Below are positions 2-7,385 of a stretch of DNA of 7,385 nt, in pieces (positions within the stretch are counted from its first letter, which is position 1; each line of letters begins with the position of its first letter). The DNA is from Lentisphaeria bacterium (lineage in GTDB: Bacteria > Verrucomicrobiota > Lentisphaeria > Oligosphaerales > Oligosphaeraceae): positions 1 to 7,385 of the forward strand of contig JAEEXV010000265.1 in NCBI GenBank assembly GCA_016287975.1, read 5' to 3'. The notes below the pieces were generated by a model that saw only the letters and a program-made list of their open reading frames with translations, did not search any database and was not told the origin of the DNA. A program made the translations under genes and the position numbers.

Positions 2-106
2 CTCCGTCGAGGCATCAACGACCGCTTCCTCCGCATCTCCGTCGGGATAGAAAATGCCGGCGACCTCATCGAAGACCTAAAACAGGCAATCAGCAAACAA
101 GCATGA
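2..106 (+). CDS. C-terminal end of a trans-sulfuration PLP enzyme (partial)
   Basis: Only the last 34 codons lie in the window; the gene begins before base 1. The reading frame ends in Leu-Arg-Ile-Ser-Val-Gly-Ile-Glu followed by Asp-Leu-Ile-Glu-Asp-Leu. This is the typical C-terminus of the Cys/Met-metabolism PLP family (cystathionine gamma-synthase, cystathionine beta- or gamma-lyase, O-acetylhomoserine sulfhydrylase). The Arg in this motif belongs to the substrate-carboxylate site in the family. The PLP lysine and the residues that separate the subfamilies are outside the window, so the exact reaction cannot be called. Its TGA overlaps the ATG of the next gene (ATGA), which suggests translational coupling with the MalY-like lyase and a joint role in cystathionine/homocysteine metabolism. 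Confidence 0.85.
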   Translation, partial: LRRGINDRFLRISVGIENAGDLIEDLKQAISKQA

Positions 107-1281
107 ACTACGATTTCGACCTAATTATTTCACGCTACCACACATGCAGCCTCAAATACGACTTCGCAAAAGAACGGGGAAAGCCTGGAGACTTGCTGCC
201 GATGTGGGTGGCGGATATGGATTTCCAGACGCCGCCAGCCGTGCGGGAGGCACTGGCGGCCAGGGCCGTCCACGGCATATTCGGCTATTCCGATCCGGAC
301 AAAGAGTATTTCGATGCCCTTTCCAACTGGTTCGGGACGCGGCATGGCTGGGAGGTAGATCCAACCACGTCTGTTCGTGCTCCTGGCGTCGTGTTTGCCC
401 TCTGCACCTTGATTCGATGCCTCACGGAACCGGGGGACGCAGTCCTCATCCAGGAACCTGTCTATTACTGCTTCAGAGCTGCCATCCACGACAACGGACG
501 CAAGACCATTGTGAACGAGCTGCGCTTCGACGGGATTCAATACCATATCGATTTCGAGGACTTCGAGCGAAAAATCATGGAAAACCACGTAAAACTGTTC
601 ATTCTTTGCAGCCCGCACAACCCTGTCGGGCGCGTGTGGACGGGCAGCGAACTTGAACGATTGGCGGAAATCTGCCTGCGCCACGGCGTGTTCGTGGCGG
701 CGGATGAAATCCACGAGGATTTCGTGTACACCGGCCACAGGCACACCGTCTTTGCAACGCTTTCAGGGGAAGTCGCCGACAACTGCGCAGTCTGCACCGC
801 GCCAAGCAAGACATTCAATCTCGCCGCACTGCACAACGCCAATATCTTCATCGCACACGAGCAGGTTCGCCGACGGTTCCAGCGAGAACTGGACGCGGAG
901 GGTTTCAGCCAGTCGAACATCATGGGTCTCGTCGCCTGCCAGGCCGCATACCAGCATGGAGCGGAATGGCTGGACCAGCTCATCGACTACCTATATGGCA
1001 ATATCGCGCTCATGCGTGAGACATTCAAGTCCCGCATGCCGCAGCTGCGCCTCATTGAACCGGAGGGGACCTATCTCCCATGGGTGGATTTCTCAAGACT
1101 CCACCTGCCTGTCCCCGAACTGGAACGTTTCATCGTCGAGAAGGCGAAACTCTGGCTGGACGGCGGAACCCTCTTTGGAGCAAGCGGCGCTGGCTTCCAG
1201 AGGTTCAACATAGCCACTCCGCGCGCGGTTGTACGGCGTGCACTGGAACAGCTTGAATCCGCAATGCATCAAATCTCATAA
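103..1281 (+). CDS. malY: MalY/PatB-type cystathionine beta-lyase (PLP-dependent)
   Basis: This 392-residue protein has the length and layout of the MalY/PatB C-S beta-lyases, fold-type I PLP enzymes of the cytosol that split cystathionine (and cysteine or its S-conjugates) into a thiol, pyruvate and ammonia. The N-terminal signature LPMWVADMDF is at residues 32-41. Asn173 sits in SPHNPVG, Asp201 (pyridine-nitrogen contact) in AADEIHEDF, the PLP lysine is Lys236 in PSKTFNLA, and the carboxylate-binding Arg is Arg367 in GFQRFNIATPR. The ATG at 103 is preferred because the protein begins with the usual family N-terminus and overlaps the preceding stop as ATGA. No strong Shine-Dalgarno is visible, so reinitiation is likely. 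With the upstream trans-sulfuration enzyme it could run homocysteine formation for methionine, or act in cysteine/thiol degradation. MalY-type lyases are promiscuous, so the in vivo substrate is uncertain. Its last 13 bases overlap the end of the opposing acetyltransferase gene. Confidence 0.93.
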   Translation: MNYDFDLIISRYHTCSLKYDFAKERGKPGDLLPMWVADMDFQTPPAVREALAARAVHGIFGYSDPDKEYFDALSNWFGTRHGWEVDPTTSVRAPGVVFALCTLIRCLTEPGDAVLIQEPVYYCFRAAIHDNGRKTIVNELRFDGIQYHIDFEDFERKIMENHVKLFILCSPHNPVGRVWTGSELERLAEICLRHGVFVAADEIHEDFVYTGHRHTVFATLSGEVADNCAVCTAPSKTFNLAALHNANIFIAHEQVRRRFQRELDAEGFSQSNIMGLVACQAAYQHGAEWLDQLIDYLYGNIALMRETFKSRMPQLRLIEPEGTYLPWVDFSRLHLPVPELERFIVEKAKLWLDGGTLFGASGAGFQRFNIATPRAVVRRALEQLESAMHQIS

Positions 1282-2204
1282 GTCAGGAATTCGCCATTCT
1301 GGAATTCGACATTCTCGTTTCGCTTGAACTGGAGTTCAGGCATCTTGGCGCTGACGCGCGTCTGTTCGGGGACGGACTTTGTCACGAACGCATTGCCGCC
1401 AACGACAACGCCACCGCCAATCACCGTCTCGCCCCCCAGGATGGAAGCGCCCGAGTAGATAGTCACATCGTCCTCGACGGTCGGATGCCGCTTCCGGCCC
1501 TTCAGCTGCTGGCCGCCACGTGTCGAAAGCGCCCCCAGCGTGACACCCTGGTAGATTTTCGCGTGCTCGCCAATCTCCGCCGTCTCGCCGATTACGATGC
1601 CCGTCCCATGGTCGATGAAAAAATATTTCCCAAGCTTCGCGCCTGGATGGATGTCGATTCCCGTGACACTGTGGGCATGTTCCGTCATGACGCGCGGAAT
1701 CAGCGGAACGCCAAGCTCATACAGCTCGTGGGCAATCCTGTTCACCATCGTCGCATAGATGCCTGGATACGAGGAAATCACCTCGTCGCGGCTGAACGCC
1801 GCAGGGTCGCCCTCGTAGGCGGCCTCTATGTCCGTAGCGAGGTATTCGCGAATCTTCGGAATAGCGCTTAGAAACGCATCCACAATCTCCGCGCTCCGCT
1901 CCTGGAGCTCATCTTCAGCCGTCTGCTTGTATTCCTCCTTGAACATGCGAAGCGTCTTGGCTACTTGCTCCAGCAGCGTCTCGCGGATTTCCTCTAGCAA
2001 CTGCCCTGTGTAGAAGCGGATGTTGTCGCCCCGAAGCTCCTTCTGGTCAAAGAAGCCGGGGAAGACGATGTACTGCAATTTTCTCAGGGCCTCCAGAATA
2101 CGCTCGCGCTTCGGGAACTGCGTCTCCCCGATCTTGCGGATATGTGGATGACGCGCGTAGCTCTCCAGCACCGCCTCCAATAAGTCGTCTATCTTGTGGG
2201 TCAT
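1269..2204 (-). CDS. cysE: Serine O-acetyltransferase, long form
   Basis: This 311-residue protein transfers acetyl from acetyl-CoA to L-serine, giving O-acetylserine, the usual acceptor in cysteine synthesis. Residues 1-175 form a helical N-terminal region, longer than in short EpsC-type enzymes. From about 182 to 285 it shows left-handed beta-helix hexapeptide repeats. By comparison with E. coli CysE, the catalytic residues are Asp184 (GIDIHP) and His199 (FIDHGTGIVIGE); His240 (KRHP) corresponds to the conserved active-site His. The ATG is preceded by GGAGG at 2211-2215 with a 6-base spacer, 15 bases after the desulfurase stop, so it is the last gene of the operon. The C-terminus carries a five-residue near-repeat (NVEFQ/NGEFL) from a 15-base tandem duplication and ends in Ile. 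A terminal Ile is what known acetyltransferases insert into CysK to form the cysteine synthase complex, but whether this tail does so is unknown. Serine acetyltransferase is a reported neighbour of Family 2A encapsulins. Confidence 0.95.
   Translation of the reverse strand: MTHKIDDLLEAVLESYARHPHIRKIGETQFPKRERILEALRKLQYIVFPGFFDQKELRGDNIRFYTGQLLEEIRETLLEQVAKTLRMFKEEYKQTAEDELQERSAEIVDAFLSAIPKIREYLATDIEAAYEGDPAAFSRDEVISSYPGIYATMVNRIAHELYELGVPLIPRVMTEHAHSVTGIDIHPGAKLGKYFFIDHGTGIVIGETAEIGEHAKIYQGVTLGALSTRGGQQLKGRKRHPTVEDDVTIYSGASILGGETVIGGGVVVGGNAFVTKSVPEQTRVSAKMPELQFKRNENVEFQNGEFLTYEI
1286..1315. repeat. 15-base tandem duplication inside the cysE 3' end
   Basis: Bases 1286-1300 and 1301-1315 are two adjacent copies of a 15-base unit starting GGAATTCG, identical at 14 of 15 positions (C versus A at the ninth or tenth base). 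The unit length keeps frame and encodes NVEFQ then NGEFL near the C-terminus of the acetyltransferase. Each copy contains a GAATTC palindrome. It is best explained as an in-frame slippage duplication. Confidence 0.8.
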
Positions 2205-2210
2205 GCAGTT

Positions 2211-2215
2211 CCTCC
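2211..2215 (-). promoter_or_regulatory. Ribosome binding site of cysE
   Basis: GGAGG on the minus strand sits 6 bases before the ATG at 2204, inside the 15-base gap after the desulfurase stop codon. It fixes the acetyltransferase start. Confidence 0.75.
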
Positions 2216-2219
2216 GCTT

Positions 2220-3716
2220 TTATCTTACCAGACGCGTCAGCGCCTCGGCCAGCAGGTCGATTTCCTCGGGCGTGTTGTAGAACGCCAGCACGGGGCGCAC
2301 CGTGCCCTCCAGCCCGTAGTGGCGAAGGATGGGCTGTGCGCAATGATGCCCTGCGCGGACCGCGATACCCTGTCCGTCCAGATACTTTCCGACAGAAACG
2401 ATGTCGTGGTTGTCCAGCACGAAGGACAGCACGCCTGACTTGTTCCTCGCCATGCCAATCAGGTGCAGACCGGGCACCGCCGCCAGGCGCGACATGCCGT
2501 ATTGGGTCAGTTCGTGTTCGTATGCGGCGACATTCGCCATGCCGAGACGCATCATGTATTCCAGCGCCTCGCCCAGCCCCACCGCGTCCGCGATGCTGCC
2601 CGTGCCAGCCTCGAACTTGTTCGGGGCGGCCTGGTAGACCGTGCGCTCGAAGGTGACGTCCGCTATCATGTTGCCACCGCCCTGGTATGGCTGCGCCTCC
2701 TCAAGCGCGTCCGTCCTGCCATAGACCGCGCCGATTCCATTCGGCCCGAAAATCTTGTGGCCCGAGAACACGTAGAAGTCAGGGTCCAGGGCGGTCACGT
2801 TGACAGGGATGTGCGCGACGGACTGTGCGCCATCGATCAGGATGCGCACGCCGTGCGCATGGGCGATGGCGACAATTTCCTCAACGGGAGTGATTGTGCC
2901 GAGCACATTGGAGACGTGCGTGACGGACACGAATCTCGTGCGCTCGTTGAAGAGCCTTGAGTATTCGGAGAGGATGAGCTGCCCATCCTTGTCCACGGGT
3001 ATGACGCGGATCTTCGCGCCCGTCGCCGCCGCAATCATCTGCCACGGCACGATGTTCGCATGGTGCTCCAGAATGGAGAGGATGATTTCGTCGCCTGGGC
3101 GGAGCAGCGGTCGCACATAGCTCTGCGCGACCAGATTGACGCCCTCGGTCGTGCCACGGACAAACACGATGTCCTTCGCATTGCCCGCGCCAAGGAATTT
3201 CGCCACGGTCGAACGGGCGTTCTCGTATGCGTCGGTAGAGCGCGCGGCAAGTTCGTGCGCTCCGCGATGGACATTGGAATTCTCGTGCGAGTAGTAGTAG
3301 GAGATGCGGTCGATGACCTGCTGGGGACGCTGCGTCGTCGCCCCGTTGTCAAACCATACCAGCCGTTTGCCAGAGCTGAGCGGCTCCTGAAGGATTGGAA
3401 AATCCGCGCGAAGTTTGTCCACGGGGACTGAACCCACCGTCGCGGATGAGCGCGGCAGGGGCTTTGCCTTGTCATTCGCCACCGCCGAAACGTCCGCCGC
3501 ATTCGTGGCGGACACCAGCGTGGGCGTGTATGCCTCGGTTGGCGCGGATGACGCATCGCGCAGAACATCGGAGGCGATTTGCGCCCAGTCCGTCCCAGTG
3601 GAAACCGCGGGCACAGGCTGCTGAACGCCTTCCAGTTCAGCGGCCCAGGCCAAAAGTTGCCCTTCGCTAGGCAGCCCAGCTGCTGATGGATTCAGATTAG
3701 TCCCTGCTGTAGTCAT
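2220..3716 (-). CDS. sufS: SufS-type cysteine desulfurase with encapsulin cargo extension
   Basis: This PLP enzyme takes sulfur from L-cysteine, leaving alanine and an enzyme persulfide. Counting from the ATG at 3716 (498 residues), about 99-498 is a complete group II (SufS/CsdA-like) desulfurase: His218 in EHHANIVPW, Asp295 in LIDGAQS, PLP lysine Lys321 in SGHKIFGP, catalytic Cys459 in RAGHHCAQP, and Arg474 before LAFYNT. Residues 1-98 are an extra low-complexity segment rich in Ala, Ser, Thr and Pro, absent from ordinary SufS (about 400 residues). It holds short conserved-looking pieces, notably GLPS at 14-17 followed by an amphipathic stretch ending AELEG. Such extensions direct desulfurases into Family 2A encapsulins, and the encapsulin gene lies directly upstream. 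An in-frame GTG at 3725 is possible, but the AGGTGA at 3722-3727 favours the ATG. The gene overlaps the encapsulin end by 20 bases, implying translational coupling of shell and cargo. No sufBCD genes are nearby, so a housekeeping Fe-S role is less likely than sulfur donation or storage. Confidence 0.94.
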   Translation of the reverse strand: MTTAGTNLNPSAAGLPSEGQLLAWAAELEGVQQPVPAVSTGTDWAQIASDVLRDASSAPTEAYTPTLVSATNAADVSAVANDKAKPLPRSSATVGSVPVDKLRADFPILQEPLSSGKRLVWFDNGATTQRPQQVIDRISYYYSHENSNVHRGAHELAARSTDAYENARSTVAKFLGAGNAKDIVFVRGTTEGVNLVAQSYVRPLLRPGDEIILSILEHHANIVPWQMIAAATGAKIRVIPVDKDGQLILSEYSRLFNERTRFVSVTHVSNVLGTITPVEEIVAIAHAHGVRILIDGAQSVAHIPVNVTALDPDFYVFSGHKIFGPNGIGAVYGRTDALEEAQPYQGGGNMIADVTFERTVYQAAPNKFEAGTGSIADAVGLGEALEYMMRLGMANVAAYEHELTQYGMSRLAAVPGLHLIGMARNKSGVLSFVLDNHDIVSVGKYLDGQGIAVRAGHHCAQPILRHYGLEGTVRPVLAFYNTPEEIDLLAEALTRLVR

Positions 3717-4653
3717 AGTATTCACCTACCTCCACGTCTTCAAGCACCGCGATGGCGTCATCTGCGAGAATCGCCGCCGAGCAGTAGAGCGACAGCAGGT
3801 AGGATGCCACTCCCTTGTCGTCTATGCCGCGGAAGCGGATGGAAAGGCCGCGCGAATGCTCGCCCTGCAGACCGCTCTGGTACAGTCCGATGACGCCGCG
3901 CTTCGTCTCGCCCGTGCGGATCAGCAGGATGTTCGTCTTGCCGCTCTGGGACTTCGGGTTCTTCAGCCCGTCCACAAGCATCTTGTCCGACGGAATCAGG
4001 GGGATGCCACGCCAGAGGATGAAGGTCCCGCCGTTGATGTTCGCGGTCACAGGGGGCACGCCGCGGCGCGTGCATTCGCGCTCGAACGCCGCGATGGCAC
4101 GGGGATGGGCCAGGAAGAAGGACGGCTCTTTCCAGACCTTGGAGATGAGTTCGTCCAGGTCGTCGGGCGTGGGTGCGCCGACGCTGTTGTGCGGCTGGAT
4201 GCGCTGCGAGTCGGCCACGTTCTTCAAAAGCCCGTAGTCGTCATTGTTGATGAGCTGGCTTTCCTGGCGTTCGCGGAGGCTCTCCACCGCCAGCGCAAGC
4301 TGTTCCTTGGCCTGGTCATAGGGCGAGCTAAACACGTCCTGTACCTGGGTGTTGACGTTGATGATGGTGGAGATGGAGTTGAGAATGTATTCGCGGGGCT
4401 TTTGCTCGTAATCGACAAAGCCCTGCGGGATGGTGTCGCTCTTCGGCTTGGAGCTGCAGAGCACTTCCAGCGGCGTCGCGCCTTCTTTCACCCTGTTGAC
4501 GCGGTAGATACCGGCGTCCAGACCCTTGAACTCCAGAAATCTGGAGAGCCATTTCGGGGTAAGCATCCCGAATTGCGGCCTAGTCTTCGTGACGTCCGCC
4601 AGCTGATAGGCCGCGGCTTTTCCCAATGCGTTGATTTTGATTTCGTCGGACAT
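3697..4653 (-). CDS. srpI: Family 2A encapsulin shell protein (SrpI type)
   Basis: This 318-residue protein matches the SrpI-type Family 2A encapsulins, HK97-fold proteins that self-assemble into closed protein shells in the cytosol. Recognisable blocks, recalled from the Synechococcus SrpI sequence, are: the N-arm with QLADVTKT and LTPKWL (17-36); AGIYRVNRVK (47-56); VDYEQKPREY (80-89); SSPYDQAKEQL (109-119); ERQESQLINN followed by YGLLKNV (128-146); APTPDDLDELI and VWKEPSFFLAHP (160-184); ECTRRGVPP (193-201); WRGIPLIPSDK (214-224); VGLYQ-like GVIGLYQSGLQGE (253-265); and a C-terminal LYCSAAILADDAIAVLEDVEV before YYDYSRD. There is no nucleotide-binding insertion of the Family 2B kind. The gene is followed, with a 20-base overlap, by a desulfurase carrying a cargo-type extension, which is the classic Family 2A pairing. 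A modest AAGGA at 4663-4667 lies 9 bases before the ATG. Cyanobacterial and Acinetobacter relatives package cysteine desulfurase, and the Acinetobacter one was reported to store elemental sulfur; the same is inferred here, not shown. Confidence 0.94.
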   Translation of the reverse strand: MSDEIKINALGKAAAYQLADVTKTRPQFGMLTPKWLSRFLEFKGLDAGIYRVNRVKEGATPLEVLCSSKPKSDTIPQGFVDYEQKPREYILNSISTIINVNTQVQDVFSSPYDQAKEQLALAVESLRERQESQLINNDDYGLLKNVADSQRIQPHNSVGAPTPDDLDELISKVWKEPSFFLAHPRAIAAFERECTRRGVPPVTANINGGTFILWRGIPLIPSDKMLVDGLKNPKSQSGKTNILLIRTGETKRGVIGLYQSGLQGEHSRGLSIRFRGIDDKGVASYLLSLYCSAAILADDAIAVLEDVEVGEYYDYSRD

Positions 4654-4703
4654 GTTCTTGTTTCCTTGCTGGTTATGGTTTTCTATTTCAATTCACGGAA
4701 AAA
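4654..4703 (-). other. A/T-rich 50-base spacer before the encapsulin gene
   Basis: This is the widest gap in the minus-strand gene set and is much more A/T-rich than its surroundings. It contains AAGGA (4663-4667) as the likely encapsulin ribosome binding site. I see no hairpin with a T-run and no convincing -35/-10 pair, but an internal promoter or mRNA-processing site that raises shell expression is possible. Confidence 0.4.
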
Positions 4704-5885
4704 TCAGAGTTGTCTTGCGGTCGGGTCAACCTCGTTGATCCACCCCTGCACACCGTCCTGGAGGTTCATCATCCGCCCCTGGTAGCCCGCCTCGCGCAGA
4801 TTGCGGATGGCCAGGATGCTCCGCTGGCCGATTTTGCAGACAAAGACAGTGTCCACGGCAGGGTCAAGTTCCTCCTGGCGGCGGACGACCTGGCCGAGCG
4901 GAACCGCCTTTGCATTCGGAAACTTGAAATAGGCGCGCTCGTGCGGCTCACGCAGGTCGATGACCTGGACCGGCTCGCCCGCGTCGAAGCGCCGCTTCAG
5001 CTCGGTTGCGGAGATGGATTCCACGGGCGTCTCGTCCTGCTGGCGTCTCATTCCGCAGAACTGCTCGTAGTCGATGAGCTTCGTGATGCTCGGATGCTTC
5101 CCGCAGATCGGGCAGTCGGGATCGCTCTCCAGCTTCAATTCGCGGAATTTCATCCTCCACGCGTCGTAGAGAAGGAGACGGCCCGCAAGCGTTTCGCCGC
5201 CGCCCACAATGAGTTTGATGACCTCGTTGGCTTGAATCATCCCGATGACGCCGGGCAGGACGCCGAGTACGCCGCCCTCCGCGCAAGATGGGACCAGGCC
5301 GGGCGGCGGCGGCTCGCGGTAGAGGCAGCGGTAGCACGGCCCGTGCTTGGCGTAGAAAACGCTTGCCTGCCCTTCGAACTGGAATACCGAGCCGTAGACG
5401 TTCGGCTTGCCGAGAAGCACGCAGGCGTCGTTGACAAGGTAACGCGTCGGATAGTTGTCCGTCCCGTCCGCCACCACGTCGTACTCGCGGATGATGTCCA
5501 AGGCGTTCTCGCTTTTCAGCGGCTCGTTGTAGGTGACGACGTTCACCAGAGGGTTCAGGGCTCGGATTCGGTCCCGCGCGGAGGCGACTTTCGGACGCCC
5601 CACGTCCCGTGTGCCGTGGATGATCTGGCGGTGGAGGTTCGAGGCGTCGACGCAGTCGAAATCCACGAGGCCGAGCGTGCCCACCCCTGCGGCTGCCAGA
5701 TAGAGCGCAAGAGGCGCACCAAGGCCGCCCGTCCCGACGAGCAGGACCTTCGCGGCCTTCAGTTTCTTTTGCCCCTTGATGCCGATTTCTGACAGAAGAA
5801 GCTGGCGGCTGTAGCGCGAGAGCTCGTCGTGCGTCAGCTCCCCCAGCCGCTCATCGGGTATGATGCTTGGTATGGCTTCGCTCAT
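4704..5885 (-). CDS. moeZ: MoeZ-type adenylyltransferase/sulfurtransferase (ThiF + rhodanese)
   Basis: This 393-residue fusion activates a ubiquitin-like sulfur carrier by adenylating its C-terminal Gly-Gly and then turns it into a thiocarboxylate. Residues 18-265 are the MoeB/ThiF (E1-like) domain: RYSRQ at 24-28, the nucleotide loop GTGGLG at 51-56, Asp143 in DGTDN, two Zn-binding CxxC pairs at Cys184/Cys187 and Cys258/Cys261, and the conserved Cys201 in SCAEGGVLG. Residues 288-393 are a rhodanese domain with active-site Cys350 in the loop CKIGQRS, which would carry the persulfide. This arrangement is that of mycobacterial MoeZ, which serves CysO and molybdopterin synthase. The start lies 3 bases after the CysO stop, and its Shine-Dalgarno AGGAGG lies inside the CysO Gly-Gly codons. 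The immediate neighbour CysO is the obvious partner. The rhodanese domain could accept sulfur from the encapsulin-linked desulfurase, which is inference. No molybdopterin or thiamine genes are in view. Confidence 0.94.
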   Translation of the reverse strand: MSEAIPSIIPDERLGELTHDELSRYSRQLLLSEIGIKGQKKLKAAKVLLVGTGGLGAPLALYLAAAGVGTLGLVDFDCVDASNLHRQIIHGTRDVGRPKVASARDRIRALNPLVNVVTYNEPLKSENALDIIREYDVVADGTDNYPTRYLVNDACVLLGKPNVYGSVFQFEGQASVFYAKHGPCYRCLYREPPPPGLVPSCAEGGVLGVLPGVIGMIQANEVIKLIVGGGETLAGRLLLYDAWRMKFRELKLESDPDCPICGKHPSITKLIDYEQFCGMRRQQDETPVESISATELKRRFDAGEPVQVIDLREPHERAYFKFPNAKAVPLGQVVRRQEELDPAVDTVFVCKIGQRSILAIRNLREAGYQGRMMNLQDGVQGWINEVDPTARQL

Positions 5886-5888
5886 GTT

Positions 5889-6167
5889 TCAGCATCCTCC
5901 TGCAATTGCGGGAACAAGCATCACGGTCGCGCCAGGCGCGACCTGTGTCTCAAGCCCGTTCAGTTTCTTGATGTTCGTCCCATCTACGAAGACGTTCACG
6001 AAGCCGCGCAGTTTCACGCCGTCTTCATAAATCTGGTGTTTCAGGTCGGGGTATTCGGCTGCAAGATTGGCAAGAGCCTCCCTGACGGTGCCGCCGTCAA
6101 CTTCGACCTCGGACTTGCGGTCCACAAAGGATCTCAACGCAGTTGGTACTAGAATCGTAACGCTCAT
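5889..6167 (-). CDS. cysO: CysO-type sulfur carrier protein ending Gly-Gly-Cys
   Basis: This 92-residue protein has the beta-grasp ubiquitin-like fold of the MoaD/ThiS/CysO family. It closely follows mycobacterial CysO: an N-terminal VTILVPTALR strand, the central RGFVNVFVDGTNI segment (54-66) and a C-terminal VMLVPAIAGG (82-91). Sulfur carriers work through a C-terminal Gly-Gly that is adenylated and thiocarboxylated. Here Gly90-Gly91 is followed by one more encoded residue, Cys92, before the TGA, so the tail is masked and would have to be trimmed. A precedent is QbsE of thioquinolobactin synthesis, whose C-terminal Cys-Phe is removed by the JAMM protease QbsD; a JAMM gene lies just upstream here. 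AAGGAG (6175-6180) sits 7 bases before the ATG. It is flanked by mec and moeZ, so activation, use and release genes are contiguous. MoaD for molybdopterin is the alternative, but the neighbours argue against it. Confidence 0.93.
   Translation of the reverse strand: MSVTILVPTALRSFVDRKSEVEVDGGTVREALANLAAEYPDLKHQIYEDGVKLRGFVNVFVDGTNIKKLNGLETQVAPGATVMLVPAIAGGC
5896..5901 (-). promoter_or_regulatory. moeZ ribosome binding site embedded in the CysO tail codons
   Basis: AGGAGG on the minus strand lies 10 bases before the moeZ ATG at 5885 and overlaps the codons for the last Ala-Gly-Gly of CysO. The GGA choice for both glycines creates it. The two genes are therefore locked together for translation. 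Confidence 0.7.
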
Positions 6168-6174
6168 GATGGTG

Positions 6175-6180
6175 CTCCTT
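6175..6180 (-). promoter_or_regulatory. Ribosome binding site of cysO
   Basis: AAGGAG on the minus strand, 7 bases before the ATG at 6167, lies in the 15-base gap after mec. It supports the short CysO start. Confidence 0.75.
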
Positions 6181-6182
6181 GT

Positions 6183-6608
6183 TTATGGTTCGATTTCAAT
6201 CGGTTCGCTGTCAAACGCCTCGCGGCTTGGACGCAGCCGCCAGCTGGTCATCAGCTCCGGCCTGCCTTCCGCCACGCGAAGGATTATGTACGAGTAGAAC
6301 GGCAGAGCGTGTTCCCTGTCGTAGTCTGACGGTCTGGACGGATGGTCCGGATGCGAATGGTAGAAGCCGATGATTTCCAGCCTCAGTCTGCGCGCCTCCA
6401 GTTCCGCCTGCATCATGTCCTCCGCCGTAATCAGGAAACGGTGGTACTGCTCGCCGCCTTCACGCGCATTCTCTATCGGACGCAACGCCTTCACGATATG
6501 GATATCGTCCTCTTCGCTACCGAACATGATGCCGCAGCATTCGTTCGGATACGCCTTCGCTCCAGCCGCCCGGATTTCCGCATCGAGTTGTCTAGTCAGT
6601 CTAATCAT
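6183..6608 (-). CDS. mec: Mec-type JAMM metalloprotease
   Basis: This 141-residue protein (from the ATG at 6608) is a single JAB1/MPN/JAMM domain, the zinc peptidase fold of mycobacterial Mec, which cuts cysteine from CysO-cysteine. The complete metal-site motif is present: Glu23 in PNECCG, then His84-Ser-His86-Pro, Ser94 and Asp97 in the pattern HxHx7SxxD. The protein is essentially only this domain, as expected for the Mec/QbsD class. GGGAGG (6616-6621) lies 7 bases before the ATG at 6608 but only 4 before an in-frame GTG at 6611, so ATG is preferred; it overlaps the CysM stop by one base (TGATG). The adjacent CysO carries an extra Cys after Gly-Gly, so this enzyme may have two jobs: maturing the carrier and releasing newly made cysteine. 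The second is known for Mec, the first is inferred. Confidence 0.92.
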   Translation of the reverse strand: MIRLTRQLDAEIRAAGAKAYPNECCGIMFGSEEDDIHIVKALRPIENAREGGEQYHRFLITAEDMMQAELEARRLRLEIIGFYHSHPDHPSRPSDYDREHALPFYSYIILRVAEGRPELMTSWRLRPSREAFDSEPIEIEP

Positions 6609-7385
6609 CACTGCGCCTCCCAGAAATCAGAGGAAAGATAGCGGTTTCCGTTGTCACAAAGAATTGTCACCACGACCGAGCCGGACGGCAGCGTCTTCGC
6701 CAGTTTCAACGCCGCCGCGACATTCGCGCCCGAGCTGATCCCCGCCAGAATCGCCTCCTCGCGGACAAGCCTGCGCGTCATCGCCAGCGCCTCCTCCGTC
6801 GAAACCTCCAGTTTGACATCCGCGATCGAATCATCGAAGAACCCCGGATGGATGGTCGAGGCCATGTGCTTCATCCCCTCCAGGCCATGGAAGGGCGAAT
6901 CAGGCTGCATCAGGACCGACTTCACCTGCGGGTTCAGATGTTTCAGCCCACGGCTCGTCCCCATGAAGGTCCCCGACGTGCCCGTACCCGCCACGAAATG
7001 CGTCACGCGATGCCCCGTCTGCTCCCATATCTCCACCGCAGTCCCGTTGAAATGCGCCTTCCAGTTCGCGTCGTTGTTGTACTGGTCGGGATAGAAATAC
7101 CGCTCGGGGTGTTCCGCGACCAGCCGACGGCACTCGTTGTACGCTCCGTCCGAACTCTCCAGCGGATCCGTCTCAATGATCTCGGCACCGTAGAGCCGCA
7201 TCAGCTTCTTGCGCTCCTCCGTCGCGTTTGCGGGAAGGCACAAAGTAACTTTGTATCCAAGTGCCGCCCCCAGGGCCGCATATGCGATTCCCGTGTTTCC
7301 GCTCGTCGCGTCGATGATGGTCTTGTCGTGCGTCAACGCGCCTCGCTCTATCCCGTCCAGGATCATCGCCTTCGCAGCACGGTCC
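6608..7385 (-). CDS. cysM: CysM-like cysteine synthase (5' end outside window)
   Basis: The frame stays open to the window edge, so the N-terminus is missing; the visible 258 or so residues begin with DRAAKAM, directly after the Ser-x-Lys where the PLP lysine should be. Counting from the internal Met at 7366, the substrate loop TSGNTG is at 21-26, the PLP-phosphate loop GTGTSGT at 127-133, and ISSGANVAAAL (210-220) and LCDNGNRYLS (236-245) follow. This is a fold-type II PLP enzyme of the CysK/CysM family, which replaces the leaving group of an activated serine with a sulfur nucleophile. Placement beside mec, cysO and moeZ indicates a CysM that takes sulfur from CysO-thiocarboxylate. In my by-eye alignment, the position of mycobacterial Arg220, which binds the O-phosphoserine phosphate, is Lys166 (GMKHM). 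With a serine acetyltransferase in the same operon, O-acetylserine remains an equally good acceptor. The C-terminal tail is shorter than in mycobacterial CysM. Cystathionine beta-synthase is less likely. Confidence 0.92.
   Translation of the reverse strand, partial: DRAAKAMILDGIERGALTHDKTIIDATSGNTGIAYAALGAALGYKVTLCLPANATEERKKLMRLYGAEIIETDPLESSDGAYNECRRLVAEHPERYFYPDQYNNDANWKAHFNGTAVEIWEQTGHRVTHFVAGTGTSGTFMGTSRGLKHLNPQVKSVLMQPDSPFHGLEGMKHMASTIHPGFFDDSIADVKLEVSTEEALAMTRRLVREEAILAGISSGANVAAALKLAKTLPSGSVVVTILCDNGNRYLSSDFWEAQ
6616..6621 (-). promoter_or_regulatory. Ribosome binding site of mec
   Basis: GGGAGG on the minus strand lies within the last codons of cysM. Its 7-base distance to the ATG at 6608 versus 4 bases to the GTG at 6611 decides the start in favour of ATG. 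Confidence 0.7.

Follow-up and report, generated by a model that had tools for sequence, protein, structure and literature searches.

The 7,385-nucleotide stretch analysed here (the window), contig JAEEXV010000265.1 of the Lentisphaeria bacterium assembly GCA_016287975.1, carries eight genes, seven of which occupy the minus strand between 7384 and 1269. Judged by its sequence, this seven-gene locus is an operon for a family 2A encapsulin that also encodes a ubiquitin-like sulfur relay of its own; in relatives, the relay often takes the form of a carrier–E1 fusion. A hand-over of sulfur from the desulfurase of the operon to its MoeZ-type E1 and CysO carrier is plausible, and the conserved operon offers a candidate answer to two questions: what becomes of the sulfur that a desulfurase liberates within its encapsulin, and from where the rhodanese domain of the CysO pathway obtains its charge. 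The first-pass annotation of the window had described seven tightly packed minus-strand genes, and all of them are present in the order it gave, with gaps of at most 50 bases. The Mec and CysO genes are separated by 15 bases, CysO and MoeZ by 3, MoeZ and the encapsulin by 50, and the desulfurase and serine O-acetyltransferase (SAT) by 15; cysM and mec overlap by 4 bases, and the encapsulin and desulfurase genes by about 20 if the desulfurase starts at ATG 3716.

The shell protein (3697..4653) scores 478.8 bits against the family 2A model NF041162 (cut-off 380), which bears out its earlier assignment to this family. It has 318 residues, and PF19307 is the sole domain found; unlike family 2B shells, it has no internal cyclic nucleotide-binding domain, and the 2B model gives 372.9 bits, under its cut-off of 400. 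Solved relatives are 8t6r and SrpI (6x8m). The adjacent gene (2220..3725) encodes a SufS-type cysteine desulfurase (TIGR01979, 522.9 bits; cut-off 475.1) with about 100 residues ahead of the SufS domain. The cargo model NF041166 gives 757 bits, under its cut-off of 800, with the first 202 model positions unmatched. Its N-terminal motifs LPSExxL and Y(S/T)P are shared with relatives when the alignment is read by eye. We predict that the desulfurase is the shell cargo, with an N-terminal extension of the cargo kind, and its true start is likely ATG 3716, as the relatives suggest. The SAT (1269..2204) scores 161.5 bits with TIGR01172, under the cut-off of 210.65, and 150.3 bits with the EpsC model NF041874 (cut-off 150).

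The remaining four genes encode the putative relay. The MoeZ-type E1 (4704..5885) consists of a ThiF domain (PF00899) with CYRC and CPIC motifs and a C-terminal rhodanese domain (PF00581) with a CKIGQRS loop; among three full-length MoeB/MoeZ models, only PRK08762 passes its cut-off (449.4 versus 449 bits). The CysO/MoaD-like sulfur carrier (5889..6167; PF02597; NF041918, 68.1 bits, cut-off 60) has the C terminus PAIAGGC, one residue past the GG. Its structure matches are 1v8c, 4n6e and 3dwg_C, the last of which we take to be mycobacterial CysO. Mec (6183..6611; PF14464) is a JAMM metalloprotease with the motif HSHPDHPSRPSDYD, and its nearest solved structure by sequence is 2kcq. The CysM-type cysteine synthase (6608..7384; PF00291) is cut at its 5′ end by the window edge, and this incomplete sequence reaches 297.5 bits with TIGR01138 (cut-off 394.2). 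The position of the SVKDR lysine falls outside the window and was read from the complete, 97% identical gene of the closest locus, which has 45 extra residues from ATG L001:7142 and in which the lysine is present. The CysM, Mec, CysO and MoeZ set named in the first-pass annotation is encoded, with catalytic motifs in place (the CysM lysine as read in L001).

We searched one genome per species for the encapsulin, obtained 512 candidates with a relative and retained the best 80 (L001–L080). The nearest encapsulins lie on Victivallales-titled contigs that come from sheep rumen, buffalo reticulum and other gut sites, with L001 at 98% identity. A co-occurrence check across genomes had been proposed at the outset, together with the possibility that the neighbourhood is unique to this genome; CysO and MoeZ both lie beside the shell gene in 74 of the 80 closest loci, so the linkage recurs. 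Three of the six loci without the full pair (L003, L027 and L076) sit on contigs that end just upstream, L008 has a MoeZ gene within which its contig stops, and the contig of L058 stops after mec; L044 shows no CysO or MoeZ within 5.9 kb upstream and 3.6 kb downstream. Measured between gene centres, MoeZ is at most 1.6 kb upstream of the shell gene in 73 of the 80 loci. All 38 loci flanked by at least 6 kb on each side contain CysO, MoeZ, a Mec-family gene and the desulfurase, 36 of them SAT and 16 a CysM/CysK-family gene; L040 and L045 keep the set in a changed order, with CysM-Mec-CysO-MoeZ downstream of SAT. The JAMM signature HxHx7SxxD is intact in 94 of 94 Mec-family matches of L001–L080, and the rhodanese-loop cysteine is found in 84 of 84 MoeZ proteins with a relaxed pattern and in 80 of 84 with a stricter one; matches shorter than 900 bases were not counted as MoeZ, which excludes the MoeZ of L081, split by an insertion sequence (IS). 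Across 61 loci (without L046, L038 and loci missing any of the four genes), the pairwise distances of the encapsulin correlate with those of the desulfurase (0.89), MoeZ (0.72) and SAT (0.625), each with 0 of 500 permutations as high. These observations support the view that the shell, desulfurase and SAT genes and the CysO/MoeZ/Mec/CysM set make up a conserved linked system rather than a chance neighbourhood.

The titles of the locus records name Lentisphaerota, Bacillota, Spirochaetota, Fibrobacterota, Succinivibrionaceae, Desulfovibrio and, in two records, Planctomycetota groups, most records being metagenome-assembled genomes (MAGs) whose taxon labels may be wrong. Strains are also represented: Treponema zioleckii kT3, Ruminococcus flavefaciens ATCC 19208 and YAD2003, Selenomonas ruminantium GACV-9, and Lachnospiraceae AB2028 and XBB2008. 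Cultured hosts such as R. flavefaciens, T. zioleckii and S. ruminantium make the system testable. The same operon is present on the mobilizable-typed plasmid pACIB of Aliarcobacter cibarius (L081), where insertion sequences break it up and a sulfate transporter gene precedes it.

Whole-genome samples were also searched with NF041162 (E 0.001), so that the picture would not be biased by a choice of the 80 closest loci. Matches were found in 7 of 398 genomes from the phylum of G007 (R. flavefaciens), 17 of 398 from that of G013 (Ruminobacter), 8 of 288 from that of G001 (Victivallales), 52 of 167 from that of G006 (Fibrobacter), and 3 of 198 each from those of G005 (Treponema) and G014 (Desulfovibrio); several are long frames (approximately 470–540 residues) that look like 2B shells. 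We read the neighbourhoods of all matches in the G007, G013 and G001 samples and of 20 of the 52 Fibrobacter-phylum genomes; in the Treponema and Desulfovibrio samples, one and two genomes, respectively, were read besides the centres. With the centre of each sample counted, the encapsulin has CysO next to it in 2 of 7 genomes for G007, 1 of 17 for G013 and 2 of 8 for G001; the state of CysO is unreadable in G394, G505 and G976, where the contig ends no more than 1.4 kb upstream. The Fibrobacter-phylum stretches show it in 9 of 20, with at least four others cut by contig ends and two repeating L044 and L058. CysO was not found in the three non-centre stretches of the Treponema and Desulfovibrio samples, which look like 2B.

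Since these samples show CysO beside only some encapsulins, CysO linkage is, as far as the compared sequences go, a property of one encapsulin clade and not of family 2A at large. In an encapsulin tree of 125 rows, all CysO-linked rows fall into one 100-row clade on a long stem with 100% support in the Shimodaira–Hasegawa-like approximate likelihood ratio test (SH-aLRT), and CysO presence changes three times over the rows of known state; the tree comes from a quick search, has long branches outside the clade and does not place the 2B outgroup on one side of a branch. Within the clade, 71 rows are fused, 13 separate (the window included) and one IS-split, while 8 are contig edges and 7 are without CysO. 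The tree leaves out L149, L164 and L168 (on the contigs of L003, L058 and L044), L165 (contig edge), eight of ten rows taken for 2B, and the short loci L086–L126. Rows titled from different phyla are intermixed within the clade, which points to horizontal spread or to misbinning of some MAGs. The linkage is thus more general than the sequence of one window could reveal, belonging to an encapsulin clade found mostly in gut bacteria of several phyla.

The family 2A operons read outside the clade have no CysO; they combine the shell with a desulfurase, mostly with SAT and sometimes with CysK or a rhodanese (Synechococcus elongatus, Azospirillum, Variovorax). Three Fibrobacter-phylum loci (L155, L163 and L170) have encapsulins inside the CysO clade with CysK/CysM directly upstream, and no CysO was found there; this looks like a return to the ordinary arrangement.

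The fusion was also traced in 130 genomes from the family of G012, the genome of Lachnospiraceae bacterium AB2028 (L049). Two match the whole fusion, and these are the same two that have an encapsulin above the cut-off (one being the centre), as against 0 of the 128 others at E 1e-40; 15 other genomes match only the ThiF or ThiF–rhodanese part at that threshold. In G1732, the second fusion genome, the fusion and the shell gene are 120 bases apart.

CysO and MoeZ form a single frame of about 485 residues in 62 of the 80 loci. The CysO part of every one of the 71 fused frames examined ends in (I/V)AGG, followed by A in 40, S in 29, and T and R in one each; L046 and L038, the latter with unread bases in its CysO part, are counted among the 62 and the 71. 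The sequence after the GG resembles, by eye, the N terminus of separate MoeZ proteins. An AlphaFold2 model of the R. flavefaciens fusion has a mean predicted local distance difference test score (pLDDT) of 82, and its best solved fold match is Uba4 (6yub). Because residues 90–106, from the GG on, fall below 50, the carrier seems to be tied to the E1 by a flexible stretch. Among 14 separate CysO proteins (the window and 13 relatives), the conserved AGG is followed by C in six, F in two, R, G and I in one each, and longer tails in three. This variety rules out the idea that the GGC end of the window protein mimics a CysO–cysteine adduct. Two separate CysO proteins still end in GG, L011 (AGGG) and L055 (a 25-residue tail ending GTGG), and trimming may be unneeded in L011.

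An E1 of the MoeZ kind adenylates a free C-terminal glycine, so the fused and extended CysO forms should need a protease. Proteolytic trimming of CysO therefore seems to be required, and the trimming protease is probably the JAMM protease Mec. In 50 of 67 loci, a JAMM gene is found no more than 800 bases upstream of CysO; loci with a CysO start in their first 700 bases are left out of this count. The text of Iyer et al. (PMC1779556) suggests that JAB proteases release fused carriers.

Acceptor enzymes were surveyed in 46 CysO-bearing loci that have 6 kb of sequence to either side; 39 of these are fused. A CysM-family gene adjoins Mec-CysO in 10; 28 of the other 36 have a MetY-like gene (>150 bits, on either strand, anywhere in the stretch), and a second ThiS-like gene is found in 34 of the 46. 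The order in L049, for example, is MetY, Mec, CysO-MoeZ, encapsulin, desulfurase, SAT, ThiS, ThiF and JAMM. Since shell, desulfurase and relay are constant while the acceptor varies, the survey favours a flow of sulfur from the desulfurase to the relay rather than in the reverse order. In PMC8346489, a co-encoded, co-regulated rhodanese is proposed as a possible recipient of the sulfur of the encapsulated desulfurase. In the CysO clade, this rhodanese would be part of the carrier-charging enzyme, which would name the sulfur acceptor. MoaE was found in none of 18 relatives' genomes with the system (11 of 14 controls have it), indicating that the E1 does not serve molybdopterin there.

We think it reasonably probable that these genes form one sulfur storage-and-reuse operon, in which desulfurase sulfur is relayed via CysO to cysteine. 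The desulfurase, loaded in the shell, would take sulfur from cysteine, and this sulfur would be held inside the shell or released as persulfide or sulfide, to be collected by the MoeZ rhodanese domain outside or on the shell. Mec would trim the residue or residues past the GG of CysO or, in relatives with the fusion, sever CysO from MoeZ, and MoeZ would adenylate the trimmed C-terminal GG on the way to the CysO-thiocarboxylate. CysM would then join the thiocarboxylate sulfur to O-acetylserine supplied by SAT, and Mec would release cysteine; in relatives without CysM, the MetY-like enzyme may serve as acceptor. Such an arrangement would serve to store sulfur while cysteine is abundant and to return it later bound to protein, with little or no sulfide set free. 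We extend this only tentatively to the whole encapsulin clade, mostly gut anaerobes of several phyla: it may possess a ubiquitin-like-coupled sulfur organelle, whose shell-enclosed desulfurase would charge a CysO–E1–rhodanese precursor that a JAMM protease splits or trims at the GG, stored sulfur passing to CysM (for cysteine) or a MetY-like enzyme (for homocysteine) without free sulfide.

Several observations weigh against storage and reuse by this route. The desulfurase consumes cysteine and the relay would make it, so that the path from desulfurase through CysO to cysteine is net zero, and the loop futile, unless storage separates its halves in time. Each of the 18 relatives' genomes encodes another CysK/CysM-family protein above cut-off elsewhere, and the relay is therefore not the sole cysteine route. 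The window E1 bears both CXXC motifs, as does the mycobacterial MoeBR, which failed to charge CysO where only MoeZR did so (PMC3227635). No Mec gene lies within 800 bases upstream of CysO in 17 of the 67 loci, 13 of them Ruminococcus-titled, and where these exceptions have a JAMM gene it is about 7 kb away beside a second ThiS/ThiF module. Seven encapsulins within the CysO clade have no CysO nearby. Finally, shared species history adds to the distance correlations between the encapsulin and its neighbours.

The main rival to a flow from desulfurase to relay is the opposite order, in which cysteine is produced by the CysO relay, from sulfide or a different sulfur source, and then provides the sulfur that the encapsulated desulfurase stores. 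On this view, CysO/MoeZ/CysM would be no more than a substitute for the CysK and lone rhodanese that other family 2A operons have. The operons outside the clade pair the same shell and desulfurase with SAT, and some with CysK or a rhodanese (S. elongatus, Variovorax), so that the relay module would occupy the place of CysK; the presence of SAT in 36 of 38 well-flanked loci also agrees with this order. A supply arm should, however, keep its synthase, and CysM is not adjacent in 36 of 46 well-flanked loci though CysO-MoeZ stays. The CysK found elsewhere in 18 of 18 genomes checked could stand in for the absent CysM, and we regard the opposite order as somewhat unlikely.

Co-regulation alone, with shell and relay as independent members of one sulfur-starvation regulon that exchange no sulfur directly, appears improbable. 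Further sulfur genes do lie nearby in relatives (MetY, a second ThiS/ThiF/JAMM set, thioredoxin genes, a SulP sulfate permease in L049 and the sulfate transporter gene of Aliarcobacter), but the relay tracks the shell clade, 73 of 80 loci have MoeZ immediately ahead of the shell gene, and in the one family sampled for it the fusion occurs only together with the shell (two genomes). It is also conceivable, but very improbable, that CysO-MoeZ uses desulfurase sulfur to charge another target in tRNA thiolation or protein modification, like Urm1/Uba4. The fold match of the fusion to Uba4 would suit such a role, as would a gene of a tRNA methyltransferase family (PF03054) that L001 has 2.4 kb past SAT; against it, CysM or MetY-like enzymes and SAT accompany CysO-MoeZ.

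The family 2A desulfurase encapsulin SrpI/CyD of S. elongatus shares with the window the shell family, a SufS-like cargo with an N-terminal extension and SAT in the operon. It differs in having CysK and a single rhodanese where the window has a CysO/E1–rhodanese/JAMM relay beside the shell; the N terminus of the window cargo is also shorter. The mycobacterial CysO-MoeZ-CysM-Mec pathway uses the same four protein families, whereas the window genes are linked to a desulfurase and a shell. The window CysO has a residue past the GG, and CysO in relatives is extended or E1-fused. The co-encoded SAT suggests that the window CysM uses O-acetylserine rather than the O-phosphoserine of the mycobacterial form. 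The two CXXC motifs of the window E1 are assigned to the MoeB type in PMC3227635 (2011), in which the sulfur source of MoeZR is given as unknown.

The relay half of the window resembles the operons of ThiS/MoaD, E1–rhodanese, JAB and cysteine synthase genes described by Iyer et al. in 2006 (table row 4c; PMC1779556), in whose main text the words encapsulin and desulfurase have no match. That study places operons of ThiS/MoaD-like, E1, JAB and cysteine synthase genes in alpha- and gammaproteobacteria, Acidobacteria, Bacteroidetes/Chlorobi, Chloroflexus and Actinobacteria, so the statement of the first-pass annotation that the CysO route is known mainly from Actinobacteria is too narrow. In the account of the MoaD–MoaE fusion MoaX (PMC4326299), a cut between Gly82 and Ser83 is needed for function, and its protease is unidentified there. 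MoaX resembles the CysO-MoeZ fusions of the relatives in that the carrier is joined through an internal GG followed by Ser (mostly Ala or Ser in the relatives), but its partner is MoaE; the partner in the relatives is an E1, and many of the loci also encode a JAMM protease. The main text of PMC8346489 contains none of the terms ThiF, MoeB, ubiquitin or molybdopterin. Our literature search, with the supplements of PMC8346489 and subscription papers outside its scope, found no report joining encapsulins with CysO, thiocarboxylate or a sulfur carrier, in line with the earlier remark that no characterised compartment is known to feed a ubiquitin-like sulfur carrier.

Wolinella HcyS/HcyF/HcyD and MetY form a thiocarboxylate homocysteine pathway. 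Similarly, L029 and L049 carry ThiS-like, ThiF, JAMM and MetY genes near the shell, in their case as a second module beside CysO-MoeZ that the window does not have. The MetY-like, ThiS-like, ThiF and JAMM genes beside the encapsulin operon lie at L049:6740-7993 and 13757-15207 and, together with thioredoxin and thioredoxin reductase genes, at L029:12692-16876.

Other features concern single loci or the surroundings of the operon. In the MAG region L046:8516-10050, a stop codon interrupts the CysO part and the frame is broken where MoeZ ends, through assembly error or decay; these breaks rule out the MoeZ–encapsulin fusion considered for this locus. Two genes separate JAMM from CysO-MoeZ in L159 (Fibrobacter phylum; 11741-12316), one for a YafQ-like toxin and a small one that matches no Pfam family. 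A sigma-70 consensus scan of the window gave 0 sites, which carries little weight as shuffled sequences average 1.8. A scan of 15 sources for Rfam elements before the operon revealed no known riboswitch at gathering scores, the only matches being a TwoAYGGAY RNA in L049 and a tRNA in L022. The eighth gene of the window (103..1281, plus strand) encodes a PatB-family C-S lyase (TIGR04350, 447.3 bits; cut-off 340) and is convergent with SAT, with a 13-base overlap. It is a neighbour whose membership in the operon is not clear; Victivallales loci share it, and it adjoins SAT on the opposite strand also in L001, L002, L006, L007 and L009.

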